A stretch of 40,450 nt of DNA from positions 1 to 40,450 of the IMG/VR virus record IMGVR_UViG_3300036944_000417; one strand, written 5' to 3'. This document shows, in pieces, positions 7,170-9,508 of this stretch. The stretch is from a virus. The position numbers were made by a program, and so were the translations under genes. Positions within the stretch are counted from its first letter, which is position 1. Every line of letters starts with the position of its first letter. Below the pieces are notes generated by a model. It was not told the origin of the DNA and did no database searches. It saw only the letters and a program-made list of their open reading frames with translations.

Positions 7170-7198
7170 AATGTAAGCGCACTTATCGCTTACGTCAA
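7170..7198 (-). promoter_or_regulatory. leftward early promoter (pL-like)
   Basis: Read leftward: TTGACG, 17 bases, TACATT, a good sigma-70 match. Operator-like sequences lie on the -35 element and across the spacer and -10 element. It points at the early operon beginning at 7120. About 40 bases separate the expected start of transcription from the first ribosome site. Confidence 0.65.
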
Positions 7199-7257
7199 GC
7201 ACTCTTACGTAAGAATGCTAATCTATTTATGACCGGTTGGTCAGTAAGCGTGTTTCA
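7173..7257. promoter_or_regulatory. operator cluster near pL (four 14-bp sites plus half-sites)
   Basis: Related sites: GTAAGCGCACTTAT at 7173-7186; GTAAGAGTGCTTGA on the minus strand at 7195-7208; GTAAGAATGCTAAT at 7209-7222, adjoining it head to head to form the palindrome TCTTACGTAAGA; GTAAGCGTGTTTCA at 7244-7257. GTAAGCG at 7173-7179 and CGCTTAC at 7187-7193 are also exact inverted halves. Two more copies of the same element lie at 9259-9295, so the same regulator probably binds both clusters, as in lambdoid immunity regions. Confidence 0.6.
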
Positions 7258-7262
7258 GGCGT

Positions 7263-7288
7263 AAAAAAACCACCGCGGAGGGTGGTTT
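7263..7288 (-). terminator. intrinsic terminator of the repressor operon
   Basis: On the minus strand an 8-bp stem AAACCACC/GGTGGTTT with a 6-base loop is followed by a T run. It lies 20 bases after the stop of the gene at 7308-8213 and ends the repressor, nucleotidyltransferase and partner transcript before it reaches the operators. Confidence 0.75.
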
Positions 7289-7307: not shown

Positions 7308-8213
7308 CTAGTGCAGCACTGAAATCAGGGTGTGTTTGAAGATGTCTTTCTTCAACACTGAGTCGTAGTACCGGGCAGTTCTGACGCGCAGGCCAGCCTC
7401 TTTGCTTAGTGTGAGGCGCTGGACTTCGGCCATCAGTTTCAACGGGAAGCGTACTTTCTGGTGCTCGTTGTCCACACGTAGCCGGATCGCTCCAGTTTCA
7501 GCCATTGCACTCACAAATCCGCGCAAATTCTGCTCAATTATTTCCTGCTCTTTAGTGCTTTCAATCAAGTCAATTACGCGGTGTATTTCTGCGGGCGTGC
7601 CCTTCCATGTCTTCGGGTCATTTTGCCGCCACCAGGAAAATTCAGCAGCCATGCCGCTTTTCTCTGTGCTTTGCAGCGCTTCACCGATGTTCCTTGCCGC
7701 AATGCCTCCAACGGCATCTACGGCATCGTAAAAGTCATCTGCATCGGCGTTTAATAAACGGAAAGTCTGGGTTAAGGTGGCGCCAAGCAGGCTGATCCCA
7801 GTGAGGTCTTCCCTGCCATCGCCGGTCACAAAAATGCGGGTAGAACCGCCACCAGTCCCCGCCATTTTTAGGGCTATGGTGTCTTTCACATCCTGCCCGA
7901 CTCTTGCAGCCTCTTTTCCATTGCGAAGCCTGTGCGCCGCCTGGTTCAGGCCAAGGTTCAACGGCGTGATGATCTTCAAGAACTGACCCAATGGGATAGT
8001 TCCATGGTCTGCATAAGGGCCGATAAATCGAAGGTCTAGCAACTCTCCGGCGTCTTTTGCATGGCTCAGTGCTTCTTCATCCTGGCTGTCTTTTGCATAG
8101 CCTTCGTAAGCCTTCGCAAAGAAACTGGCGCCCCTGCTTCTTGGGTTGGCCAATGCCTTTTCTCTCCATGCTTCTGCTTGCTCAGAAAGATGTTTTGTGT
8201 GTTCGGGTGTCAT
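7308..8213 (-). CDS. 301-aa partner protein in repressor operon, function unknown
   Basis: The start at 8213 overlaps the stop of the nucleotidyltransferase gene (ATGA), so the two are translated together. The N-terminal 60 residues are charged helix; the middle has IPLGQFLKIITPLNLGLNQA followed by VKDTIALKMAGTGGGSTRIF, an alpha/beta pattern with a Gly-Gly-Ser turn seen in several uncharacterised bacterial proteins. The rest alternates helices (DADDFYDAVDAVGGIAARNI; RVIDLIESTKEQEIIEQNL) with short strands. No membrane segment and no catalytic motif that I can name. It is transcribed with the phage repressor and ends at a terminator, so it should be made in the lysogen: a position typical of lysogenic conversion or anti-phage genes. 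Confidence 0.65.
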   Translation of the reverse strand: MTPEHTKHLSEQAEAWREKALANPRSRGASFFAKAYEGYAKDSQDEEALSHAKDAGELLDLRFIGPYADHGTIPLGQFLKIITPLNLGLNQAAHRLRNGKEAARVGQDVKDTIALKMAGTGGGSTRIFVTGDGREDLTGISLLGATLTQTFRLLNADADDFYDAVDAVGGIAARNIGEALQSTEKSGMAAEFSWWRQNDPKTWKGTPAEIHRVIDLIESTKEQEIIEQNLRGFVSAMAETGAIRLRVDNEHQKVRFPLKLMAEVQRLTLSKEAGLRVRTARYYDSVLKKDIFKHTLISVLH

Positions 8214-8674
8214 AGGTAGAGCTTTGCGAACCCCTTGGTGCCGCTGGCGTCTTTGGTCATAGAAAACAACGCCTCCCAATAGATTAAATTGTTTTGTGCC
8301 TCTGGTGGAATCAAATACAGGTCCACCTGATACTTGCGCGAAATGGCTTGTTTGTCACCAAGCTGTTGGAGTTCATGGTACTGCTGATCGGTGCAGTTGT
8401 CTACGTGAGACTGCGGGAGCCACAGTGCACAGTCCACATCTCTGGGAGCTGGCTTTTCAGTCAAGAATGAGCCGTCAACCCACAATTCAAGGCCAGACAA
8501 TCCGGCGTCAATCATGCGGTTGTACAGGGCTGCGAACCCTTCCCACAGCTTTGTCCTGCGCTCGGATGGTGCGGCGCTTACGCACATCCGGTGCAATTCA
8601 GCGACAGTTTTTAGCTGCGGCCCAGGTTGTTGTATCAGTGGGGTATTTTCAGGTGACAGACTTCTTTGCGCCAT
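8210..8674 (-). CDS. nucleotidyltransferase-fold protein (DUF6932/MNT-like)
   Basis: A 154-aa protein with the minimal nucleotidyltransferase signature: LWVDGSFLTEKPAPRDVDCALWLP near residues 65-88 read as GSF, about ten residues, then D-x-D. A further aspartate on a strand occurs in YQVDLYLIPP near 117. This matches the GS..D.D core of small MNT-type proteins such as the DUF6932 group. Members of this fold act as antitoxins or as AMP-adding enzymes on partner proteins. Its start lies 26 bases inside the repressor gene, and its stop overlaps the partner gene at 7308-8213. A two-gene module expressed from the prophage is likely. Substrate unknown. Confidence 0.65.
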   Translation of the reverse strand: MAQRSLSPENTPLIQQPGPQLKTVAELHRMCVSAAPSERRTKLWEGFAALYNRMIDAGLSGLELWVDGSFLTEKPAPRDVDCALWLPQSHVDNCTDQQYHELQQLGDKQAISRKYQVDLYLIPPEAQNNLIYWEALFSMTKDASGTKGFAKLYL

Positions 8675-9233
8675 GTTGTGACAGGTTGAATTGTTCTCCC
8701 GCGTGAGCGGCCTCCGTCAGGCGCCTAGCCCGATCTTTTTCTTCTGGTGTTAACTGAGGGTCTTGCAATGCCGGTTCGGTCTTGTTGAATAGCAACGCCT
8801 GCAGCGCTGTGCTTATTCTTTGGTGGTTTTCTGGATTTCTGGCAAGGCTTGAAAGCAACGCGGCACAAGTTTCTCTTGTGGACGGGTCTGCGTTGGTGAA
8901 ATTCATGGCCAGGCTCTCAACGGCCTTCTCCAGAGCTGGCCCCGCGCTGCCACTGGCCTGCATGGTGTCGCCAGCCTCAGTGACGTTCAGGGTGCCGGTG
9001 ACTGCGTACTTAGGGCCTTTGCCTTTCGCTACCCACAGGGCGCATAGGCCGGTGTGCTTCTCAATTCTCTCGGCTGCCTCCTGGCTGCCAATACTTTGCA
9101 CGGGCCGCCCGTTGCCTTTCCCTATCCATTGAGAAACAGCAGAAGACGAGACTCCCGCAACCTTTGCAAGACTGCCAACTTCCAGGTTGAAGTCCCTGAA
9201 TATCTCTTCAACCCGGTCTTTCAAAGGAATCAT
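8649..9233 (-). CDS. CI-like phage repressor without peptidase domain
   Basis: A 194-aa protein. Residues 1-40 form a lambda-type helix-turn-helix (VGSLAKVAGVSSSAVSQWIGKG), followed by a conserved phage-repressor segment (IEKHTGLCALWVAKGKGPKY). Downstream I see no S24 serine-lysine autoproteolysis domain: the C-terminal half is helical (PALEKAVESLAMNF; TCAALLSSLARNPENHQRIS) and probably oligomerises. It should therefore not respond to RecA in the LexA way. It faces the Cro-like gene across the operators at 9259-9295 and leads a three-gene lysogenic operon. No strong ribosome site is visible. Confidence 0.8.
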   Translation of the reverse strand: MIPLKDRVEEIFRDFNLEVGSLAKVAGVSSSAVSQWIGKGNGRPVQSIGSQEAAERIEKHTGLCALWVAKGKGPKYAVTGTLNVTEAGDTMQASGSAGPALEKAVESLAMNFTNADPSTRETCAALLSSLARNPENHQRISTALQALLFNKTEPALQDPQLTPEEKDRARRLTEAAHAGEQFNLSQHGAKKSVT

Positions 9234-9258
9234 GTTAGACAGCTTAATTTAATTTTAA

Positions 9259-9295
9259 GTAAGAGCACTTGAGCGTTTAAAGTAAGCGTGCTAAC
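9259..9295. promoter_or_regulatory. operator pair between repressor and Cro genes
   Basis: Two copies of the 14-bp element also found near 7173-7257: GTAAGAGCACTTGA at 9259-9272 and GTAAGCGTGCTAAC at 9282-9295. The first covers the -35 box of the rightward promoter and the second fills its spacer and -10 box. Binding of repressor or Cro here would block rightward transcription. Confidence 0.65.
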
Positions 9296-9304: not shown

Positions 9305-9508
9305 ATGAACAAAACTCAAGCCCTTGAATTGCTCGGCGGGACCGTCACCGCAGCCTCCGAAGCAATCGGCATCTCCCCAGCAGCGGTATCCCAATGGCCA
9401 GAAGAGCTTTCGGACTCTATTCGTGACCGCGTGCAGGCCGCTCTGTGGCGAAAGGCCGCAGAAACACAGGCGCGCACCGCTACTGAAACCATAGCAAAAG
9501 CGGCCTGA
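9305..9508 (+). CDS. Cro-like regulator
   Basis: A 67-aa protein with a compact helix-turn-helix, LELLGGTVTAASEAIGISPAAVSQWPEELSDSIRDRV, very close to phage Cro proteins of the YdaS/Cro group. It is divergent from the repressor across the operator pair and is the first gene of the rightward operon. There is no ribosome site upstream, consistent with leaderless translation from the pR-like promoter. It should compete with the repressor for the 14-bp operators and favour lytic growth. Confidence 0.8.
   Translation: MNKTQALELLGGTVTAASEAIGISPAAVSQWPEELSDSIRDRVQAALWRKAAETQARTATETIAKAA

Follow-up and report, generated by a model that had tools for sequence, protein, structure and literature searches.

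A candidate superinfection-exclusion cassette of the PDC-M63 type in the repressor operon of a temperate phage: a predicted DUF6932 nucleotidyltransferase and its partner

Phage lambda carries the two genes rexAB behind its repressor, where they are cotranscribed with cI and flanked by the operator clusters OR and OL. RexA has been described as RdgC-like (PMC11077077). Another two-gene system, the validated abortive toxin-antitoxin PD-T4-10 of E. coli, consists of two overlapping open reading frames, of which the second, DUF6575-bearing gene encodes the toxin and the first its antitoxin (PMC9519451). The candidate PDC-M63 has been catalogued by PADLOC and is uncharacterised, and neither a mechanism nor a positive activity was found for it in the literature searched. 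Its copy in E. coli NILS69 lies in a prophage, and in the only published test deletion of PDC-M63AB left infection by 10 virulent phages unchanged, the authors themselves flagging their phage set as narrow and virulent (PMC12409345).

The window analysed here is the whole stretch of 40,450 nucleotides of the virus record IMGVR_UViG_3300036944_000417, a temperate phage in which terminase, portal, endolysin, a Sak4-like annealing protein, helicase and integrase were found. A leftward operon of three genes (9233-7308) encodes, in this order, a CI-like repressor, the predicted nucleotidyltransferase M63A and the partner protein M63B. The features referred to below are the following:

7173..7221: OL-like operator cluster just past the terminator (7173, 7196 and 7209)
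7267..7288, minus strand: intrinsic-terminator-like hairpin with an 8-bp stem, T run at 7263-7266
7308..8213, minus strand: M63B, 301-aa partner (PDC-M63B, phrog_6603), ATG within ATGA, stop at 7308
7314..7544, minus strand: residues 224-300 of M63B, predicted as a C-terminal OB-fold-like domain (Foldseek against the PDB)
8210..8213, minus strand: ATGA stop/start overlap joining M63A and M63B
8210..8674, minus strand: M63A, predicted DUF6932 minimal nucleotidyltransferase, 154 aa (Pfam, PADLOC, AlphaFold2)
8321..8323, minus strand: third catalytic-type carboxylate D118 of M63A, 0.96 conserved, the remainder Glu
8426..8485, minus strand: catalytic core LWVDGSFLTEKPAPRDVDCA, residues 64-83 of M63A (P0002), with W65, G68, S69, P77, D79 and D81
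8649..8674, minus strand: overlap of 26 nt between the repressor 3' end and the start of the nucleotidyltransferase gene
8649..9233, minus strand: CI-like repressor of 194 aa, whose gene leads the operon
9234..9294: OR-like operator cluster of 13-bp sites (9234, 9259 and 9282) with a spacing of 25 and 23 bp
9305..9508, plus strand: Cro-like small gene, 67 aa, an HTH-like ORF that begins just beyond the operator region, divergent from the repressor operon

Both M63A and M63B were matched by the PDC-M63 profiles, are adjacent and stand in the same two-gene order, with no anatomical difference to PDC-M63; as judged from these profile matches, the pair is a member of this candidate.

The operon had been outlined in a preliminary description of this DNA as a three-gene repressor transcript with its own terminator and ATGA coupling, and its coordinates, the nucleotidyltransferase motif and the coupling were all recovered as described. 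The repressor is called CI-like from weak profile matches (phrog_2328 at 4e-4, Phage_CI_repr below the cut-off), from its position and from the operator-like sites, and the Cro-like naming of the divergent ORF follows from its HTH-like sequence, its position and the analogy to the lambda switch. The overlap between repressor and nucleotidyltransferase gene likely leads to translational coupling; the same kind of overlap, of 23 nt, exists in the closest relative (L067). The terminator could likewise be located, as a hairpin followed by a T run. Its folding energy is by itself unremarkable (z = -0.98), and the assignment was therefore made because of stem, T-tract and position.

For the operators, a 13-bp motif was built solely from the three sites between repressor and Cro-like gene and scanned over the whole 40 kb. 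The three sites past the terminator turned out to be the strongest others, and no site as strong exists in the 40 kb outside the two clusters. The operon therefore sits between an OR-like and an OL-like cluster, their identity as operators being suggested by position, spacing and exclusivity. A fourth, weaker operator-like site was observed at 7244-7256, near the terminator. From the gene overlaps and the terminator, the pair would be cotranscribed with CI, and together with the operator-like flanks these features bear out the earlier proposal of a position suited for expression with the repressor.

This arrangement resembles lambda rexAB in that two genes accompany a CI repressor, between the repressor and the left operator, with one partner predicted to bind nucleic acid. 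RexB, however, is a membrane protein, whereas M63A is predicted to have a soluble nucleotidyltransferase fold. No relation to RexA or RexB was detected in sequence and fold searches, and RexA is absent among the matches listed by Foldseek for M63B. The RexAB-type system of P. putida was considered as the same system and rejected, being a distinct, RexA-like one.

M63A matches Pfam DUF6932 (PF22014) at 4.4e-26 and the PADLOC profile PDC-M63A (PDLC04744) at 6.4e-28. DUF6932 is annotated in Pfam as a family of unknown function, and no literature on it was found. The GS..D.D...D core of nucleotidyltransferases is intact in M63A: among 38 sequences R40, W65, G68, P77, D81, W133, K147 and G148 are invariant, and S69, D79 and D118 are conserved at 0.96. 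AlphaFold2 models of M63A and M63B were built from alignments of the loci. The best fold matches of the M63A model (pLDDT 91.9, pTM 0.86) in the PDB are the MNT antitoxin chains 7ae2 and 7ae9, a Sulfolobus nucleotidyltransferase and the DNA polymerases lambda and beta, all of them weak (best E 0.016, all E >0.01) and interspersed with ribosomal proteins; no credible sequence relative of M63A or M63B was found in the PDB. Taken together, the modelled fold and the conserved motif support the prediction that M63A is a minimal nucleotidyltransferase. The small nucleotidyltransferase core that had been recognised earlier thus found its counterpart in the PF22014 match and the conserved GS..D.D residues, and the structure prediction proposed at that time yielded a nucleotidyltransferase-like fold, with the weak PDB matches given above.

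M63B was matched by PDC-M63B (PDLC04749) at 1.9e-44 and belongs in PHROGs to phrog_6603, annotated as of unknown function. No Pfam or NCBIfam family matched, so that its initial characterisation as a protein of no named family holds for these two databases but not for PADLOC and PHROGs. Its model (pLDDT 86.6, pTM 0.80) starts with a helical hairpin, continues with an alpha/beta region and ends in an OB-like barrel. For the latter, Foldseek returned IF1, the RuvA N-domain, SSB/Rim1 and the OB domain of LysRS from the PDB with a probability of ~1.0 but E values of 0.009-0.07 over ~80 aa, and the OB assignment spans just the C-terminal quarter of the protein. M63B is thus predicted, from its model, to be a nucleic-acid binder. 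Only G65, G123 and S124 are invariant among 40 sequences. As invariant polar residues are found in M63A and not in M63B, the chemistry is placed in M63A, and the alignments indicate that catalysis most likely resides there rather than in M63B. The best viral fold matches of M63B include a DUF6575 protein. A HEPN fold was considered as well; none was among the PDB matches listed, the model consisting of hairpin, alpha/beta region and OB barrel. A homology of its N-terminal hairpin with the hairpin of the HTH partners of DUF6932 (see below) was also considered and was not significant against block-shuffled controls.

These predictions bear on the MNT-like two-gene architecture that had been ascribed to the pair. 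A small GS..D.D nucleotidyltransferase beside a conserved partner, with 7ae2 and 7ae9 as best PDB folds, is indeed shared with HEPN-MNT (type VII toxin-antitoxin) systems. The predicted fold of the partner, however, ends in an OB domain and is not HEPN, and for this reason the assignment as MNT antitoxin and HEPN toxin is unsupported. With MenAT and AbiE the pair has in common a presumed nucleotidyltransferase effector in a toxin-antitoxin-like two-gene operon, but the nucleotidyltransferase gene comes first here and the partner is not of the AbiEi/MenA type. Neither MenT/AbiEii nor AbiEi/MenA appeared among the Pfam, NCBIfam and PADLOC matches, the PDB sequence matches or the fold matches listed.

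Scanning viral contigs with a single sequence gave no relative; relatives were recovered through alignments. The conserved co-occurrence for which the preliminary description had advised to search was found, also outside intact phages: A is followed by B in each of the 55 loci, taken from viral and genome contigs, where both genes are readable, and the 4-nt overlap is present in 43 of these 55 relatives. Many of the 55 loci are near-identical, the alignment containing 39 distinct B sequences besides that of the window. The pair is present in the E. coli phages mEpX1 and PhiR30_1, an Erwinia phage and a Klebsiella prophage. A Streptococcus satellite carries the order repressor-A-B (B match about 1e-18), and a Gordonia phage has the pair behind its immunity repressor, with a weak B match of 1e-5. 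Among complete genomes of E. coli, one of two variants occurs in 18 and 97 of 5426 (~2%).

A sample of 398 Pseudomonadota genomes yielded 18 DUF6932 loci; M63B adjoins 13 of them, a protein with HTH and M78 peptidase 4, and neither of the two 1. Conversely, the M63B profile matched 14 genomes of this sample, all with DUF6932 adjoining M63B, 13 of which are the intact pairs while the 14th has a broken DUF6932 next to B. Damage to single partners was seen in a few loci. In L108 (685-1769, minus strand) DUF6932 is broken, with just the C-terminal part in frame, and the adjoining M63B is intact. In the prophage of E. coli KL53 (L116, 779-3248) an ISVsa5-type element removed the first ~54 codons of DUF6932, M63B again being intact. 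L057 has an intact A, and B is not detectable. As a pointer to the toxin these losses are mixed, since the first two retain B with a damaged A and the last retains A without B.

Of 20 loci selected for this test, 19 have a repressor of the HTH and/or S24 type encoded by the gene upstream of A. Over 19 loci, whose pairs are not independent, so that the p-value of rho carries little weight, the similarities of A and B are correlated with a rho of 0.92, those of A and the repressor with a rho of 0.09, and in L016 and L018 A and B are each ~99% identical while the repressors show no detectable similarity. From this co-variation and the independence from the repressor it follows that the pair is a swappable cargo cassette, which, as far as these sequence comparisons reach, moves as one unit between unrelated immunity regions. 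In L005 (Aeromonas) and L008/L009 (Vibrio) it has transposase genes as neighbours or lacks a phage repressor that could be recognised. RexA also affects the lambda switch, and the placement of our pair with CI between operator-like clusters, together with its presumed cotranscription, would agree with a role in the phage's own lysis-lysogeny control instead of defence. Such a role is however very improbable, as the pair is exchanged among phages with unrelated repressors (the low rho and the L016/L018 case) and occurs at the Aeromonas and Vibrio loci just mentioned.

M63B is not the only partner of DUF6932. Most DUF6932 genes of a second sample, drawn at class level, have the gene of an HTH or HTH-M78 protein behind them, these partners being of antitoxin-like build, and A keeps its complete active site even when paired with an unrelated HTH protein. 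DUF6932 and the HTH-type partner constitute a second two-gene system around the same nucleotidyltransferase, apparently a chromosomal one. In L046 (1450-3374), L051, L052, L058 and L096-L100, DUF6932 was observed to be followed by a protein with coiled-coil and HTH_3, in some cases also with an M78 (ImmA/IrrE-like) peptidase domain. In L042 (51-2045, minus strand) no DUF6932 accompanies M63B, whose gene immediately precedes those of a 156-aa protein and an MqsA-family antitoxin, spaced as in an operon.

M63B-like domains are furthermore fused to DUF6575 (hhalign 98%), which is known from a validated defence screen; the PD-T4-10_B profile matches the DUF6575 region. The pair shares with PD-T4-10 two overlapping ORFs and, through M63B-like domains elsewhere, the link to DUF6575; unlike PD-T4-10, the window pair lacks DUF6575, and the C-terminal region of PD-T4-10B, considered as a homologue of M63B, gave no significant match (hhalign 1.7%). 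The exchange of the partner for HTH or HTH-peptidase proteins, the MqsA context in L042 and the DUF6575 fusions all point to toxin-antitoxin-like defence operons as the setting of these proteins.

It could be argued from these relations that the roles are distributed in the manner of HEPN-MNT, M63B being toxic or antiviral and M63A the antitoxin disabling it by nucleotide attachment. Such a distribution would agree with the MNT antitoxins as best folds of A, and with PD-T4-10, where the second gene, bearing the domain to which M63B-like domains are fused, is the toxin (PMC9519451). On the other hand, M63B is not of HEPN fold and lacks conserved catalytic residues, the active site of A is also complete beside the unrelated HTH partner, B persists next to a damaged A in L108 and KL53, and the C-terminus of PD-T4-10B shows no detectable homology to M63B. 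We consider this reversal unlikely.

The reading that we favour, tentatively and with somewhat less than even confidence, is that the pair constitutes a superinfection-exclusion cassette of the PDC-M63 type, toxin-antitoxin-like and carried by the phage in a rex-like slot, in which A would be the catalytic effector and B its controller. Support is given by the catalogued and conserved pair, the nucleotidyltransferase active site, the predicted folds, the position between the operator-like clusters and the independence from the repressor. In detail, the pair would be transcribed alongside the CI repressor in the lysogen, and M63A would move a nucleotide onto an RNA or protein target, of which tRNA is the likeliest guess following the precedent of MenT (PMC10435456, PMC11541572). 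M63B would bind M63A and keep it quiet until its OB-fold domain meets the nucleic acid of an incoming phage, whereupon M63A might be released or directed and the infected cell stopped before the invading phage matures. The bacterium would thus probably be protected against rival phages. Counting against this reading are the null result in NILS69, the weak PDB E values for A, the limited extent of the OB assignment in B, the mixed pattern of partner losses and the fact that the link to PD-T4-10B consists of DUF6575 only.

The nearly obligatory pairing of A and B in the phage form, the OB-fold partner, which would suit a nucleic-acid-recognising subunit, and the lack of resemblance of either gene to a classical autoregulating antitoxin would also fit a direct, non-suicidal antiviral complex that recognises phage nucleic acid and nucleotidylates or tails it, with no toxin-antitoxin relation at all. 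The chromosomal two-gene operons formed by DUF6932 and HTH proteins are however of toxin-antitoxin-like build, and we regard such a complex as likewise unlikely. Alternatively, the pair may be cargo of a neutral or selfish kind, which would stabilise the prophage against loss as a toxin-antitoxin module and have no anti-phage role. In line with this are its toxin-antitoxin-like build, its presence in ~2% of complete E. coli genomes and the outcome of the sole published test, which was without defence (PMC12409345), but in many unrelated phages the pair keeps its spot right behind the repressor, which is more like the rex slot than like a random cargo site and makes a purely selfish module very unlikely. 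As for the exclusion cassette that we favour, the null result could also reflect the virulent-only panel, and the pair may target competing temperate phages.

What is new in this analysis is that the pair lies between the operator-like clusters and is independent of the repressor, that M63B is predicted to have an OB fold, and that DUF6932 has a second partner, of the HTH type. If our proposal is true, an orphan defence candidate gains a mechanism, and the slot of lambda rexAB would be filled in unrelated phages by a repressor-independent nucleotidyltransferase cassette. On a broader scale, DUF6932 might be the catalytic core of a new nucleotidyltransferase-based abortive class with exchangeable controllers, namely the phage OB-fold protein M63B sensing phage nucleic acid and the chromosomal HTH or HTH-M78 peptidase proteins, the phage cassette being carried behind unrelated CI repressors in several phyla; this generalisation is a possibility that we hold with considerable reserve.

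The M63B-like domain behind DUF6575 was found in proteobacterial, cyanobacterial and actinobacterial sequences (L044, 859-2022; L093, 2953-4167; L094, 2950-4170), and in two of these, L044 and L093, the fusion is immediately preceded by a small gene of about 130 aa. In addition, a lone gene that lacks DUF6575 and is homologous to the C-terminal part of PD-T4-10B was observed next to ogrK at a P2-type cargo site of a P2-like Salmonella prophage (L092, 2998-3639).
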